From Roseicyclus sp. (GTDB lineage: Bacteria; Pseudomonadota; Alphaproteobacteria; Rhodobacterales; Rhodobacteraceae), in assembly GCA_018401385.1 (NCBI GenBank), contig JAGYKZ010000003.1, forward strand, positions 1 to 64,000: a stretch of 64,000 nucleotides of DNA, read 5' to 3'. The position numbers and the translations under genes are program-made. The notes under the pieces were generated by a model. That model made no database searches. It was not told the DNA's origin and saw only the letters and a program-made list of their open reading frames with translations. This document shows, piece by piece, positions 50,927 through 61,840 of this stretch; the stretch's first letter is position 1; every line of letters begins with the position of its first letter.

Positions 50927-51946
50927 ATGAATGCGTATTACCGTCCTATTCCGATCATTGGCCCTGCCATCGGGGCTGACGCGCTGCCCTTGGCGGGGGG
51001 CTGGTGTCATTTCACGCATATCGAACGGATCAGCCGCACGGGTGCGCGGGCGATTTTGCCCGCCACTGAATTGCCCGCGGCATGGCACGCCTCCCTCACA
51101 GCGGCGCGTGGCGATTTCGCGACCGTGCCAATGGGGCGTCCAAGCCTGATGGGGATTATAAACCTGACCCCAGACAGCTTTTCTGATGGGGGGCAGCACA
51201 ATCACGGTGACGCGGCCCTCGCGCAGGCAAGGCGCTTGTGGGCGGAAGGGGCAGATATTCTTGACCTTGGTGCCGAAAGCACGCGACCAGGTGCCAAAGA
51301 GGTGCCGCAGGCGCAGGAAATCGCGCGCCTGACGCCGGTGTTGGGGGCATTGAGCGGGGCAGGGGTGATTTCGCTTGATACGCGCAAGGCCGATGTCGCG
51401 CGCGCGGGCCTTGTGGCAGGGGCGCAGGTGATTAACGATGTTTCGGGGCTGCGTTTTGACGCTGCTATGATTGATGTCTTGCGTGAAACACGCGCACCTG
51501 TGGTTTTGATGCATTCCCTTGGCACGCCTGAAACCATGCAGGACTTGGCCCCCGATGCCTATCAAGACGTGGTATTGGACATTTTTGATGGGCTGGCCGC
51601 AATGCGCGATAAAGCGCTTGCAGCGGGTCTGTCACGCGATCAAATCCTGCTTGATATCGGTGCAGGCTTTGGCAAGACCTATCCTCAGACTCGCGCGCTT
51701 CTGCGCGATATCAGCCTGTTTCATGGGCTTGGCTGTGGTTTGCTCTTGGGCGTGTCGCGCAAGGGGTTTGTCGGCCATGTTACGGGTATCAAAGCGGCGG
51801 ATCAGCGTGATGCTGCATCGGCGGCAATTGGCTTATGGGCGATATCGCAGGGGGTTCAGATGCTGCGTGTTCATGATATAGCCGTGCATCATGCGATGAT
51901 TTCTGCCTATATGGTGGCAAGCGGTCTGACCCTTGGGGAGGGGTAA
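50927..51946 (+). CDS. folP: Dihydropteroate synthase
   Basis: Condenses dihydropterin pyrophosphate with p-aminobenzoate. Motifs: MGIINLTPDSFSDGGQHNHG (pyrophosphate loop), ADILDLGAESTRPGA, VISLDTRKADVARAGL, INDVSGLR, PVVLMHSLGTPETMQ and LLLGVSRKGFVGHVTG. 339 residues from the ATG at 50927 (MNAYYRPIPIIGPAIGADA); the upstream GTG at 50885 is an alternative. The first 75 residues are an extra N-terminal region also seen in rhodobacteral FolP. It is four bases from glmM. Confidence 0.94.
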   Translation: MNAYYRPIPIIGPAIGADALPLAGGWCHFTHIERISRTGARAILPATELPAAWHASLTAARGDFATVPMGRPSLMGIINLTPDSFSDGGQHNHGDAALAQARRLWAEGADILDLGAESTRPGAKEVPQAQEIARLTPVLGALSGAGVISLDTRKADVARAGLVAGAQVINDVSGLRFDAAMIDVLRETRAPVVLMHSLGTPETMQDLAPDAYQDVVLDIFDGLAAMRDKALAAGLSRDQILLDIGAGFGKTYPQTRALLRDISLFHGLGCGLLLGVSRKGFVGHVTGIKAADQRDAASAAIGLWAISQGVQMLRVHDIAVHHAMISAYMVASGLTLGEG

Positions 51947-51950
51947 GGAA

Positions 51951-53280
51951 ATGGCACGAAAACTATTTGGGACGGACGGGGTGCGCGGGCAGGCGAACAG
52001 CTATCCGATGACCGCTGATATGGCCCTGAAATTGGGTGCGGCGGCAGGGCGCTATTTCCGCCGCAATATGGAACGCGGCCACCGTGGTGATCGGCAAGGA
52101 TACCCGCCTGTCGGGTTATATGTTGGAAAATGCGCTGACGGCAGGCTTTACATCTACAGGCATGGATGTGCTGTTGCTCGGGCCTGTGCCGACCCCTGCG
52201 GTGGGTTGTTGACCCCCTCCATGCGCGCCGATGTGGGTGTGATGATCTCCGCCAGTCACAATCCCGCTACGGATAATGGGATCAAGTTTTCGGCCCAGAT
52301 GGGTTTAAACTATCTGATGAGGCAGAGGCGGAAATCGAGGGCTTTGGTGTTTGGTGATATCCAACCCGCACAATCCGAAAATATCGGCCGTGCCAGCGCA
52401 TCGATGACGGGCGCTTTCGCTATGTGGAGCGGGTGAAGGGCACATTTCCGCAAGGCCTAAGCCTTGAGGGTTGAAAGGTGGTCATCGGTGCGCCAATGGC
52501 GCGGCATCGTGCCGCCCCGAAGTGCTGTGGGAATGGGGGCGGATGTGGTAGCCATTGGCGTGTCGCCCAATGGGTTCAACATCAATGATGGTGTCGGCTC
52601 AACCCATCCGCAGGCGCGATTGCACGCCTCAAGGAAACGGGCGCTGATGTGGCCCTGTGCCTTGATGGTGATGCCGATCGCATCGTGATCATTGACGAGA
52701 CAGGGCAGGTGGCCGATGGCGATCAGATCATGGCGCTTTTGGCGGCACGTTGGGCCGATGAGGGCGCCTGAAGGTGGCGCTTTGGTCAGCACGGTCATGT
52801 CGAATTTGGGTCTTGAGCGCTTCTTGGCTGGACGGGGATTGGCCTGCATCGCACCGCAGTGGGCGATCGCTACGTGGTCGAGGCGATGCGTGCGGGCGGC
52901 TATAATCTGGGTGGCGAGCAATCGGGCCATATCGTGATGAGCGACCATGCCACCACCGGGGATGGGTTGATGGCGGGATTGCAATTCTTGGCAGAAATGG
53001 TGCGCCAGAACAAACCTGCAAGCACACTTGCGCGCAGCTTTGCACCGTGCCGCAGATGCTGGAAAATCTGCGGTTTCGCCAGACAAGACCCCGTTGGAGG
53101 CGGCATCGGTCAAGGCGGCAATCGCCGAGGCAGAAGGCGCGTCTGGGACAGACAGGTCGTGTCTTGATCCCAAAATCAGGCACTGAGCCACTGATCCGCG
53201 TCATGGCCGAAGCCGAGGATGAGGCGCTTATGGCTGCTGTCGTGGGCGACATCACCGCCGCCATTCGCGCCGTTATGTAA
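51951..53280 (+). pseudogene. glmM: Phosphoglucosamine mutase, frameshifted
   Basis: Makes glucosamine-1-phosphate for peptidoglycan and LPS. It begins MARKLFGTDGVRGQANSYPM after GGTAAGGAA. The catalytic serine segment VGVMISASHNPATDNGIKF is intact, in the first frame after a compensated patch (52070-52210). Metal loop [20 protein letters not shown] is read in another frame near 52670-52730, substrate loop [20 protein letters not shown] near 52910, and the C-terminal phosphate site [20 protein letters not shown] before the stop. About seven indels; the order and total length are normal. Confidence 0.92.
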
Positions 53281-53371: not shown

Positions 53372-54760
53372 ATGTTGGACGAACAAGACCTCCATCTGGA
53401 TGATGATCGTGACGCTTATGCGTTAGACGACAGTCTGCGGGCGCAGTTGCGGCGCGCGGTGAGCGCAAAAGATGTGGATGCAATTGATGCGCTGATGGCG
53501 CCGCTGCACCCCGCTGATATCGCCGATATTCTGGAGCAAATCTCAAGCTCCGAACGCGAAGCGTTGTTGACGCTTTGGTCGCGTGGGATTGATGGCGAGG
53601 TCCTCTCGGAACTGGACTGGTCGATCCGCGAGGATATCCTGCCGCTGCTGCCGCGCGATGTCTTGGCCGAAGCGGTGCGCGAGCTTGACTCCGATGACGT
53701 GGTCGATCTGGTCGAAGACCTTGAGGAAGACCAACAAGGCGCCATTTTGGGGGCCTTGGACGCCGCCGATCGTGTGGCGGTCGAGCAAGCGCTGAGTTTT
53801 CCCGAAGGATCCGCTGGCCGTTTGATGCAGCGCGAGGTTGTGCGCGCGCCCGAACATTGGACCGTGGGCGAGATGATTGATTATCTGCGCTCCGAAAAGG
53901 CGGAATTGCCTGAGCAGTTTTACCATGTGATCCTTGTGACCCCCGCGATGAAACCCGTGGGTTACGTGTCCTTGGGGCGGCTGTTGTCGAGCGCGCGCGC
54001 GACCGCGTTGATGGACATTCTGGAGGATAGCTTCCGCACCATTCCCGCCAAGCAGGACGAGGATGACGTGGCCTATGCGTTCAACCAATATCACCTGATT
54101 TCGGCACCTGTTGTGGATGATGATGGCCGCTTGGTTGGGGTGGTGACGATTGATGACGCGATGAGCGTCTTGGATGAGGTGAACGAGGAGGACTTGCGGC
54201 GTCTTTCTGGTGTGGGCGTTGATGAAAGCTTGAACGACACCACCTTTGAAACTGTGCGGCAACGGTTTCCTTGGCTGTTTGTCAATCTGGCCACGGCCAT
54301 TTTGGCCTCCATCGTGATCGCCCAATTCGAAGCGGTGATCGCGCAATTGGTGGCCTTGGCCGTGTTGATGCCGATTGTGGCTTCGATGGGCGGTAATGCT
54401 GGCACGCAAAGCCTTGCTTTGGCGGTGCGCGGCTTGGCCACGCGCGATTTGACATCCGCGAACCTGTGGCGTGTCGTGATGCGCGAGGCGGGCGTGGGCG
54501 CGCTCAATGGCATTGCCTTTGCCATCGTGATGGGGGTGGTCGGATATATCTGGTTTGACTCTGCGCTGCTCGGTGGCGTGATCGCGGCGGCGATGGTGGT
54601 CAATATGGTTGTCGCGGGCTTGGCGGGTATTCTGATCCCCGTGGCCTTGGAGCGCTTTGGCGCTGACCCTGCTCTGGCCTCAGGCACTTTTGTGACCACC
54701 GTGACAGACGTGGTCGGCTTCTTTGCCTTCCTCGGTCTTGCCGCTGTGCTGCTGATCTAG
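53372..54760 (+). CDS. mgtE: Magnesium transporter MgtE
   Basis: Mg2+ channel of the MgtE family. The N-terminal superhelical domain (LHPADIADILEQISSSEREA), the CBS pair (SAPVVDDDGRLVGVVTIDDA) and a C-terminal transmembrane domain with MPIVASMGGNAGTQSLALAV and FFAFLGLAAVLLI are all present. The ORF track begins at GTG 53291 inside the terminator region; the ATG at 53372 (MLDEQDLHLDDDRDAYALDD) has GAGGTG upstream and gives 462 residues. Its stop overlaps the stop of the converging gene by four bases. Confidence 0.93.
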   Translation: MLDEQDLHLDDDRDAYALDDSLRAQLRRAVSAKDVDAIDALMAPLHPADIADILEQISSSEREALLTLWSRGIDGEVLSELDWSIREDILPLLPRDVLAEAVRELDSDDVVDLVEDLEEDQQGAILGALDAADRVAVEQALSFPEGSAGRLMQREVVRAPEHWTVGEMIDYLRSEKAELPEQFYHVILVTPAMKPVGYVSLGRLLSSARATALMDILEDSFRTIPAKQDEDDVAYAFNQYHLISAPVVDDDGRLVGVVTIDDAMSVLDEVNEEDLRRLSGVGVDESLNDTTFETVRQRFPWLFVNLATAILASIVIAQFEAVIAQLVALAVLMPIVASMGGNAGTQSLALAVRGLATRDLTSANLWRVVMREAGVGALNGIAFAIVMGVVGYIWFDSALLGGVIAAAMVVNMVVAGLAGILIPVALERFGADPALASGTFVTTVTDVVGFFAFLGLAAVLLI

Positions 54761-56618
54761 CCGTTTGGCACCTCAAGCGTGATGTTTTGACCGTCTTTGA
54801 TATATTGTAGCCTGTCGTCATCAATCGCGGCGACACGTCCACCGTCCAGACGGTCACCCACTTCGACCGTCACAAATCGCCCCGAAGCAAGGCGCACAAG
54901 CGCGCGGCGATTGTTTGAGGACCCTGTCACCCCGATCAAATTGGTGTTGCGCAGGTTGATGGCGTTGCGATTGGTCGCAGCGCGCGTCACCCGCTCGCCT
55001 GAAGGTGTATCGGTGCTGATGGCGGCGATTTCCGCCTCGATCTCCGCATCCGTCCCTGATTGCGCGGCCTCTGCGGCAACGCCACAGAGTTATTGTGGCT
55101 GCGGCCAGCCATATGGCGACAACTGCACAACCTGCCGCGCCTGTGGTGAAGTCCGAGCCGCGCCGACAACAATCGCTGATCAACGCTTGGTTGATGCTGC
55201 GCCCCGCGCCTGCTGGGCGGGCGGTCGCTGCCTCGGCAGGGCGTGTAAAATCCGCCCGTGGCCTCGGCGATTTCCTGCAAGGAGGCCGGACGCAGACGGG
55301 GGATAAAGGTGGCTAATTCGGCACGGGTGAAACCATTGAGCCGTTGTCGTTCCAGAATTTCCATAAAATTCTCGGGGCGCAGACGCGGTGGCGTGCTGGC
55401 CAAAGCCTCCAGCGTTTCGGCGGTGGCAGCGCGGGCGGCTTCCACAATCGCATCGGGGCGCGGGATTGCGGCCACCGAAGGCGCGCCTGCGATAATCAGT
55501 ACGCCCTCAGGGTTCAGCGTTCCTTCGGGGCTTGGGTCAACCAGACCTGCTGCATTGAGCACGCCGCCCGCCCCGAAAGGCAGAGGCGAGAGGATGGGCG
55601 CAGGCAGATCACCGCCCGTGCCCCCTTGGGGGGGACGCAAGGCAAGGGCATCTTGCTGGGTCACAATCGGATCAATCGCGTCAAGCCTGACCCGATCCGA
55701 AACCGTGCGCGGTGGCCTCAATGGGGCTATGGTCGCCGCAAGGGCAATTTCGGGCGCAGGCAAAACCGCGGGCGCGGGGCGGGCTTGGGGTGGCTGCACA
55801 GGTGCGACCACATCAGGCCCAACCACATCAGGCCCAACCACATCAGGTGCGATCACCTCTGGCTGTGCGGGATTGGTGGTGGCCACCACGACTTCGGGCG
55901 GGGCTGTTGGCGTGGCACTTTCTGTCAGGCTGTCTGATGGCGGTTCGGGCCATGTAAGCCAAAATACGGCAAGGGCCGCCACCACCGCCGCACTCAGACC
56001 CCCGCCAAGCGCCAAATGTGCGGAGTTCAAGCGCGGTCGCGCGGGTATGAAATCCCTCAAGCCCCAAGATGCTGCCATGGCTGGCCGTGCATTGGCGCGC
56101 GCATTGGGGCGTGGTGTGGCCTGTCCCACATCCAATGGTGGCGGGGCGCGCAACGTGAACACCGGGGCACCGTCATATTCTGTGGGGCGGGTTTCGACCG
56201 TCAGCGCCGCAGCCTTGATCCCATTGGCCGCAACAAAAGCCCGTGCATCCTCGATGGTTTCATGTGCGATGGCCGCGATCTGTAGGTCGTGCTCACAGCG
56301 CACCCAATCATAGCGTAGCTCGTCTAGATGGTAGGGTGTTAACCCGTCCAAGTGGGATTGCACTGCTGCGGCTTCTGCGTTGCGATCTGATGCGGCGGGG
56401 GCGGGGCAGGTGGTGAAAAGAACCTGCTCACGCGGTATGACCAGCAATAGCTGTGCATTCTCTTTGCTGTCGATCAAGGCCTTCATGCGCGCAAAGGCAT
56501 CGGCCAAATCTTGGGCAACAGGCGTGGTTGTGATCACGTTTTCCCACTGGTCATCCTCTTGGCGGGCCGCCAAAATAATCGCCTCTGGCGAGAGATGTAG
56601 CGTGAACTGCGTGGTCAA
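54757..56618 (-). pseudogene. Single-pass membrane protein combining GspL/PilM-like and GspC/PilP-like parts, frameshifted
   Basis: N-terminal cytoplasmic domain of about 170 residues (VIPREQVLFTTCPAPAASDR, HLDGLTPYHLDELRYDWVR, LQIAAIAHETIEDARAFVAA) resembles GspL/PilM actin-like proteins. One helix follows (LSAAVVAALAVFWLTWPEP), then a Pro-rich linker with tandem repeats, and a C-terminal beta domain (IGVTGSSNNRRALVRLASGR, VEVGDRLDGGRVAAIDDDRL) like GspC/PilP homology regions. The last domain is in another frame; between 55000 and 55290 the frame shifts at least twice. Conserved as a hypothetical protein in Rhodobacteraceae as far as I recall. Function in secretion or pilus assembly is inference. 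Confidence 0.6.
55806..55850. repeat. 15-base tandem repeat in the proline-rich linker
   Basis: The unit CAACCACATCAGGCC occurs about three times in a row on the plus strand. On the coding strand it encodes the pentapeptide repeat DVVGP (APDVVGPDVVGPDVVAPV). The unit is a multiple of three, so copy-number change would not alter the frame. Confidence 0.85.
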
Positions 56619-56777: not shown

Positions 56778-57306
56778 TCAGACAAGCTTCTCATAAATGC
56801 GGACGATCAGCAGCGCGACAAGCAACAGCCCCATCAATGCGAGCGCATCCATCACGCTCAAAAATAAGACAGTCTGCGCCGCATTAAATTGCATCCATTG
56901 TGTATGGATGATCCACGCAACAGCCGTTACCGCCGTGCTCGGTATCAAACAGGGCAGAAGGCGCTTATGAGCTGCGTTGTGCAGGGTACCATAAAGGCCG
57001 ATTTTCTCAAGCAGGCTGAAAAAGAAGATCGGCAGGATCACACCCATAAGGCCCAATGACAGGATTTCACGTGAATTCAATCTCGGTCTGAATGAAGCCA
57101 ATGGCGACCAATGCAGGCAGGCTGCAGACAGCGGCCATGCGCCCAAAGAGCCAAGTAAGCAACAATTTTGTCACGCTGACGAAGCCAAAAAGAAGGGGTA
57201 AAGCTCCGCCGGTAGGTTCTGATCTGTTCGGGATCAAAGCCATCACGGCCATGTTCAAAAGGACCGCAGAAGATAAAACCACTGACACAATAGCCGTTGT
57301 TTTCAA
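56778..57306 (-). pseudogene. Unrecognised inner-membrane protein, split by one frameshift
   Basis: Two overlapping minus-strand frames join into one plausible product: MKTTAIVSVVLSSAVLLNMA, ALPLLFGFVSVTKLLLTWLF and MAAVCSLPALVAIGFIQTEI in the first, then REILSLGLMGVILPIFFFSL, TAVTAVAWIIHTQWMQFNAA and ALALMGLLLVALLIVRIYEK in the second. A one-base shift near 57075 would unite them into about 176 residues with four to five hydrophobic helices. I do not recognise the family. Neighbours give no clue. It could also be two real overlapping genes, though the second frame has no good start. Confidence 0.45.
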
Positions 57307-57483
57307 GGACTTTGCTCAAAATACACGCGCTTGCGCAGGCAATATCCAGTGTAACACGCGGTTTGCTCCTTAAATGGGTAGGGCTCCGTCTATTCTATGG
57401 TCGGCCAGATCGACAGACTTCTTATTTTCGATTAGCCGCATCGCCCAGATTTAAACTTTGCAAGCGCATATAGTTGCTAAGTG

Positions 57484-58254: not shown

Positions 58255-59537
58255 TTAGGCGGTGGCTTTGGCCAAGGCCTGATCAAGATCTGCGTGATCA
58301 AATCATCTGCATCTTCAATCCCGATGGAGTACACGCACCACATTGCGCCCCTGCGGCCTGTTGCTGCTCAGGCGTTAACTGGGCGGTGGGTTGTAGCGGA
58401 ATGGATAATCAGCGAACGGGTATCGCCCAAATTGGCGACATGGCTGAACAGCTCAAGACTATCAACCAATTTTACGCAAGCCTCGTAGCCGCCTTTCACC
58501 GCGAAGGTAAACAGCGCGCCTGCGCCTTTGGGGCAGATATCTCAACCCGCCCATGATAGGGCGAGGAGGGCAGACCCGCATAGGTCACGAAATCCACGCG
58601 CGGATCTTTCTCCAACCATGCCGCGATTTTCGCGGCATTCTCAACATGGCGCTGCATCCGCAAAGATAGGTCTCAATCCCCATCAGCGTGCAATGCGCGG
58701 CTTGCGGGTTCATCGTCACGCCCAAATCGCGCAAGCCAATTGCGATGGAGTGAAAGGTAAAGGCCATTGGCCCCAAGCCTCGTGGAACTTCAGGCCGTGA
58801 TAGGCGGGTTCAGGGGCCGAGAGCGAGGGGAATTTGTCGCTGGCAGACCAGTCAAATTTCGCTATCGACCACACAGCCACCTGTCACAGTGCTGTTGCCT
58901 GTCAGATATTTGGTGGTGGAATGCACAACCAAAGTCGCGCCATGCTCAATTGGACGGCACATAAGGGGTGGCAGATGTGTTGTCCACGATCAACGGATGC
59001 CCGCGCCATCGGCGATATCCGCAATGCTGCGCAGATCGGTGATGTAGCCACCAGGGTTTGCGATGGCCTTCGCAGAATACGGCGCGGTGCTGCGCTGTCA
59101 ATCGCGGCTTTCACCGCGTCCAGATCATCGAAATCAACAAATTTCGCCGACCACCCAAAGCGTTTGATCGTCTGGCTGAATTGGTGCGTGACAGTGCCGC
59201 CATAGAGACGGTGGAGGCCACGATATTGCAGCCCGCCCCATCAGAGGGAAAAGTGCCGCTGATTCGCGCGCGGCATGACCCGGATGAACAGCACACCGCA
59301 CCAACACCGCCCTCAAGGGTCGCGATGCGCTCTTGCAGCACGGCCACGGTGGGGTTGGTCAGGCGCGAATAGATATAGCCCACCCAAAAAGCTGAACAAG
59401 CGCGCCGCGTGATCGGTATCTTTGAACACATAGGCGGTGGTTTGAGGATTGGCGTCTGGCGCGCCCGCTTGGTGTGGTCTGATGCGCGCCTGCGTGAATT
59501 TGCAGCGTGTCAAATTTCAGGCTTTGGGGTCGGACAT
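58255..59537 (-). pseudogene. metY: O-acetylhomoserine sulfhydrylase (PLP-dependent), heavily frameshifted
   Basis: Forms homocysteine from O-acetylhomoserine and sulfide. No long frame survives, but the family sequence can be followed: MSDPKA at 59537, [52 protein letters not shown], then the Met/Cys PLP region ([10 protein letters not shown] traces near 58910), [56 protein letters not shown] and SIGIEDADDLI, ending in AKATA before the TAA at 58255. At least ten indels. GGAGAG precedes the ATG. Confidence 0.87.
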
Positions 59538-60556: not shown

Positions 60557-61222
60557 ATGCGCACATCTTTGGCGGGATATCTCGCGGTTGTCACCCTATC
60601 CGCCCTGCCTGCCTTGGCGCAGGATCAGAATTTGGGCCTCAGCGGCACGATTTCGGAAGAGGGGATCGTGGTCATTCCGATTGATCCGCTGCCCCTTGGG
60701 CAAGACCGTCCACAGACCTTTGGTGAAGGGACATTGCCTGAAGGCGATGGGCGCGTGATTGCGCCTGCCCCCGTGATGGGGGAGGCTGCACCTGTGATTG
60801 TGCCGCAAGCGGATGGACAGGGAGCGACCCTGACCGATAATGGCGGTGCGGGTCAATCTGGCGTTGTTCTGGAAACACGCCCTGCGGAACCTGATTTGGG
60901 CGGTGTAACCTCCATCACAGAAATCGCAACGGAAACAGGGTCGGGTGCGCTGTTGCGGGCCTTGGACAAAACCCTTGCGCAATCTCGGGACATAGATTTG
61001 CAAACGGGGGAGGCCACGCGGCTGGGGCGTATTAATGTTGAAATGCTCGAATGTCGGTACCCCGAGGGCGACCCCAACTCAGATGCTTTCGCACATATGC
61101 GGATCAGCGATGATCAAGGTGGCACGCTGTTTGATGGCTGGATGGTGGCCTCCAGCCCCGCGTTGATTGCCTTTGATCACCCGCGTTATGATGTTTGGGT
61201 CTTGCGTTGCAACACATCCTGA
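60557..61222 (+). CDS. DUF2155 family exported protein
   Basis: Signal sequence ([18 protein letters not shown]), a variable low-complexity middle of 100 residues, and a C-terminal DUF2155 domain: [40 protein letters not shown] and [16 protein letters not shown] with two cysteines that may form a disulfide. 221 residues, periplasmic, unknown function. It follows mlaD by one base and overlaps the 3' end of aat tail to tail. In Rhodobacteraceae this order is common. Confidence 0.88.
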
Positions 61223-61840
61223 GGGGTAAACACCTTATCAGCTGCACGGAAATCGGCCTCTAGGGCCAAGGCGGCGTCCAACCTTTTGCGATATTCCGTG
61301 CGACTGATTTCTATCGCACCCAGGCTGAGGAGATGCGGCGTGGTGAATTGCACATCGAAAAGCGAAAACCCGCCCGCATTGAGACGTGCGACCAAATAGG
61401 CCAAGGCGATCTTGGACGCATCGCGGACCTTTGAAAACATACTTTCGCCAAAAACGCGCCGCCAAGAGCCACGCCATAGACCCCACCCGCACCAAATCGC
61501 GGCCCTGCCAAATTTCGAGAATGCGCAAAACCTCTGCGTGCAACGCCGTGTAAAGCTGCGTGATCTCGCTATTGATCCATGTCTCCTCCCGATCCGCGCA
61601 GGCGGCTACGACTGCCGCAAAATCGGCGTTGATCTTGACCTCGACCGCGGCCTGCCGAATTTTGCGGGCAAGGCTGCGGGAAATATGAAATCCATTCAGG
61701 GGAATGACCCCACGGCGCTTAGGTTCCACCCAAAATATGCGCGGATCATCGCGGCCCTCAGACATTGGAAAAATGCCCGCTGCATAGGCGTGCAACAACA
61801 GCTGCGGCGTAATCTGGGATGCGGGAATGGCGTCAGGCAT
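61186..61840 (-). pseudogene. aat: Leucyl/phenylalanyl-tRNA--protein transferase, one frameshift
   Basis: N-end rule enzyme that adds Leu/Phe to proteins beginning with Lys or Arg. The start is MPDAIPASQITPQLLLHAYA (61840), with AAGIFPMSEGRDDPRIFWVE as hallmark. Near 61440 the frame changes; the correct continuation is [20 protein letters not shown] and [20 protein letters not shown] in the other frame, to the stop at 61186. Repaired length is about 217 residues. The upstream extension in the ORF track is not conserved. Confidence 0.91.

Follow-up and report, generated by a model that had tools for sequence, protein, structure and literature searches.

Platform components of type II secretion systems (T2SS) and type IV pili (T4P) link the two sides of the inner membrane: GspL and the GspC/PilP proteins contact the ATPase and the secretin (title of 4pht; PMC3169554). 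The cytoplasmic domains of GspL/EpsL (T2SS) and of PilM (type IVa pilus) have the same fold, and GspL continues into one transmembrane (TM) helix and a periplasmic part. GspC and PilP carry, after a membrane anchor and a linker, the so-called HR domain, whose published fold consists of six β-strands in two sheets (PMC3169554) and whose usual partner is the secretin N0 domain. Fusions of PilO and PilP in Pseudomonas putida (cited in PMC3169554) are a precedent for a fused platform protein containing a PilP part. As for the Tad pilus, PilMNOP homologues are reported to be lacking or very rare near its genes (PMC6668835), and its alignment complex is reported to be RcpC, which is encoded in tad loci, sits in the inner membrane with one TM helix, links to the envelope through a periplasmic part and is reported to lack homology to known alignment proteins (PMC12307814).

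The protein described here combines a domain of the GspL/PilM type with one of the HR type, as a rule in a single open reading frame (ORF), and is conserved in one bacterial family. It differs from GspL and PilM in that its match to the PilM fold covers roughly the first half only and its periplasmic part ends in an HR domain, with no T2SS or type IVa pilus genes around it; unlike GspC and PilP, it has a GspL/PilM-like cytoplasmic domain. The PilO–PilP fusions differ in that they have another fusion partner and belong to a type IV pilus system. Searches of open-licence papers yielded no report on the fused protein.

The gene lies in a stretch of 64,000 nucleotides from Roseicyclus sp. (hereafter the window), in an assembly of 2.1 Mb that comprises 197 contigs and is 69% complete. 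Its limits are exactly those given by the first-pass annotation, which had read it as one polypeptide combining the two modules around a single membrane helix and a Pro-rich repeat linker. Its features are the following:

54757..56618, minus strand: whole gene, TTG start at 56616–56618 and TAG stop at 54757–54759; reading frame interrupted within the linker in this assembly
56154..56618, minus strand: N-terminal GspL/PilM-like cytoplasmic domain, residues 1–155 (AlphaFold, Foldseek, Pfam)
55959..56015, minus strand: predicted TM helix, N-in/C-out (hydropathy and charge bias)
55683..55958, minus strand: Pro-rich periplasmic linker, holding a DVVGP repeat at about 55804–55850 (sequence)
55248..55682 (approximate boundaries), minus strand: conserved periplasmic segment with repeated RP motifs and predicted short helices (alignment of 42 relatives; partial model, pLDDT 80–96)
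55060..55247, minus strand: frame-breaking stretch with several small indels, probably an assembly error (DNA alignment with L098 and L099)
54760..55002, minus strand: C-terminal HR (GspC/PilP-like) β domain (Pfam PilP, model, PDB matches)

The domain order, namely a cytoplasmic GspL/PilM-like domain, one TM helix, a Pro-rich linker and an HR domain, holds. Both the single helix and the Pro-rich repeat linker were recovered by hydropathy and sequence inspection. In 65 of 76 relatives, positive charge is greater before than after the predicted helix; this bias, together with the presence of one TM helix only, assigns the N-terminal domain to the cytoplasmic side and the HR domain to the periplasmic side. 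The DVVGP repeat is genuine in the window, and the alignment shows it to be missing at the equivalent place in L098 and L099, the nearest relatives fetched. The gene is convergent with mgtE.

An AlphaFold model of the N-terminal domain (mean pLDDT 92), built from window residues 1–177 aligned with 53 relatives, was compared with the PDB using Foldseek. The best match was the cytoplasmic domain of Vibrio vulnificus GspL (E = 5.2e-9), and the other matches included the homologue from the pullulanase T2SS (PulL), EpsL and PilM (E = 4.9e-7), with FtsA ranking lower; TM-scores were moderate, about 0.5–0.57 on the query. Pfam profiles point in the same direction, the best E-values among the relatives being 9.4e-4 for PilM_2 and 0.015 for T2SSL, whereas a PDB sequence search with this domain returned nothing relevant. 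Modelling thus identifies the domain as a member of the GspL/PilM superfamily, with an actin-like fold closest to GspL/PilM. The window copy scores 12.9 bits against PilM_2, below the curated cut-off of 27, and its roughly 155 residues align to positions 48–159 only of the 340 in the profile. It does not comprise the complete two-lobed nucleotide-binding fold of PilM, the second lobe of which appears, from this alignment, to be absent. As the match does not extend beyond the first half of the PilM fold, we infer that the domain is a scaffold without ATPase activity. Note that PilM_2 also matches ORFs elsewhere in the genomes, whose lengths suggest MreB and FtsA.

At the other end, all eight aligned members weakly match Pfam PilP (best E = 1.9e-4; below the cut-off where shown). 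For the C-terminal 319 residues of L098, the model is confident in roughly the final 60, which form six strands. In the PDB search with this model, the top six matches were chain Pa of a type IVa pilus model (taken as PilP because of its chain name), GspC 3oss, PilP (two matches), LspC and the HR domain of PulC; GspB ranked ninth. The superposition on the HR domain of GspC 3oss has an rmsd of 2.1 and a TM-score of 0.78 on the target. A PDB sequence search with the C-terminal domain gave a weak match to GspC 7oio (E = 0.38), listed beside matches to ribosomal protein L2 that are likely due to chance. As modelled, then, the domain is a six-stranded HR β fold of the GspC/PilP type. Structure prediction at both ends, which could have yielded models unrelated to these families, thus bears out the two domain assignments of the first-pass annotation, with GspL followed by PilM at the N-terminus and PilP, GspC and PulC at the C-terminus. 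In the cases shown, neither end reaches the curated Pfam cut-offs by sequence similarity, and Pfam and NCBIfam searches with the window ORF alone gave nothing useful; it was the alignments and models that were informative. The segment with RP motifs that lies between the TM helix and the HR domain (L098 5287–6243, about residues 40–170 of that stretch) is conserved in the alignment of 42 relatives; part of it is modelled as helices with pLDDT values of 80–96, and it matched no known fold in the PDB search of the C-terminal model.

We then consider where the protein occurs. The C-terminal domain was found in 59 of 61 sampled genomes of the same family, the Rhodobacteraceae, and strong matches to both profiles are confined to this family in a class-wide sample of 190 genomes, so that the fused protein is, judging by profile matches, near-universal in Rhodobacteraceae. 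The two profiles match the same ORF, N-terminal before C-terminal, at 73 of 80 fetched loci and at 26 of 28 loci from sampled genera; every one of these loci was fetched through its C-terminal domain, and a contig end cuts several of the exceptions. Conservation and the fold matches together exclude a chance origin of the observation. Outside the family, the C-terminal profile weakly matches short proteins, several encoded beside secretin-like or ATPase-like genes; these are candidate GspC- or PilP-type proteins. Short proteins (about 80–115 residues) consisting of an HR-like domain alone are encoded at L081, L082, L083, L085, L086 and L088; they have no evident signal peptide or TM helix, and a soluble HR-like domain would be unusual. 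At L085, the gene adjoins purF, as read from the sequence. In three genomes of the same family (L093, L094 and L095), the HR-like domain lies in a shorter ORF of 151–277 codons in which no GspL/PilM-like domain was detected. A typical copy of the gene is also present on a 41.6-kb contig (L161) labelled Enemella evansiae, an actinobacterium; this is probably contamination.

Shadow ORFs obscured the clustering of neighbours. When the genes at L064 and L070 were read one by one, the surroundings proved to consist of housekeeping genes, as they do in the window; no gsp or pil gene, let alone an operon, adjoins the fused gene at these two loci or in the window stretch inspected, as the first-pass annotation had supposed.

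In the window itself the single polypeptide is not intact: the peptides LTPYHLDELRYDWV and RRALVRLASGRFVTVEVGDR, by which the two domains had been recognized, are both present but in different frames. This could mean that the window contains two separate genes or a decayed pseudogene, the fusion being only apparent. We regard this as very improbable. In L098 and L099 both domains lie in a single intact ORF of 589 and 599 residues, respectively, and the same arrangement prevails at the fetched loci; L098 is about 85% identical to the window copy at the DNA level, and the C-terminal domain is 96% identical to that of L098. Moreover, other window genes are frame-split as well: in a tblastn frame test against L098 or L099, glmM, metY, aat and a membrane-protein gene (51933–53277, 58287–59537, 61189–61840 and 56781–57351) each spread over two or three frames (these names were assigned by reading the sequences). 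The tblastn test replaced the counting of blastn gaps, which proved unusable since diverged relatives likewise show many out-of-phase gaps. Because glmM is essential in bacteria and yet broken in the window, a consensus error is the likely cause of the broken frames. Thus, the intact ORFs of close relatives and the broken state of glmM and metY nearby make an assembly error the most likely origin of the frameshift, and at the sequence level the relatives, which carry one intact ORF where two genes might have emerged after frame repair, already refute the two-gene interpretation.

If the protein is a true fusion, which machine does it serve? The secretin and GspE-type motor that the first-pass annotation had thought worth seeking do exist in the genome, but on another contig: the secretin, one strong T2SSE match and two T2SSF genes lie together on contig 164, a cluster as expected of a Tad pilus locus. 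The fused protein could therefore be an accessory platform of the Tad pilus, its N-terminal domain sitting on the TadA/CpaF-type ATPase and its HR domain on the RcpA/CpaC-type secretin, much as GspL and GspC/PilP touch these partners in T2SS and T4P; in addition, a secretin is present in 56 of the 61 same-family genomes. However, the fused gene lies outside the Tad locus, the Tad alignment complex is reported to be RcpC, and a search of six genomes, some of which have a secretin, yielded no STN (N0-type) domain, although an N0 domain that has diverged might go unrecognized by the STN profile. Above all, two near-complete genomes, G045 (one contig, although a Tad locus might reside on a plasmid that the assembly lacks) and G056 (99% complete), encode the fused protein with both domains in one frame, and no secretin, T2SSE or T2SSF was detected in either, so that co-occurrence with these core parts breaks down. 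We therefore consider a Tad role unlikely. Less probable still is a role in a conventional T2SS or type IV pilus, the rest of which would be encoded elsewhere. The folds of both domains do place them in that superfamily, but the single secretin and both T2SSF genes of the Roseicyclus genome are on the Tad-like contig and no PilN match was found in this genome; a single secretin is all that most sampled genomes have, whereas the fused protein is near-universal; and no core parts were detected in the same two genomes. The available sequences thus suggest that the fused protein is not tied to a known machine, even if it may have a secretin-linked role in the 56 genomes that have a secretin.

The explanation that we prefer, with a probability of about 0.5, is that the protein derives from a platform component of a type IV filament or type II secretion machine and has come to function without such a machine, as a secretin-independent scaffold across the inner membrane. 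The N-terminal domain would dock a cytoplasmic partner, acting as a scaffold and not as an ATPase; the linker and the RP-repeat segment would extend into the periplasm; and the HR domain would bind a partner in the envelope that is not a classical secretin N0 domain. Together, these parts would tether a cytoplasmic factor to the periplasm or the outer membrane. The first-pass annotation had proposed a minimal platform of an undescribed apparatus; the domains and their fusion have found support, while the apparatus stays conjectural. More tentatively, Rhodobacteraceae might share an undescribed, secretin-independent, envelope-spanning complex built on this one fused platform protein. If the scaffold interpretation is true, this protein, near-universal in a major bacterial family, demonstrates that platform parts of pili and secretion systems can be fused and retained without secretin or motor, which would be a simple case of repurposing, testable by one gene deletion.
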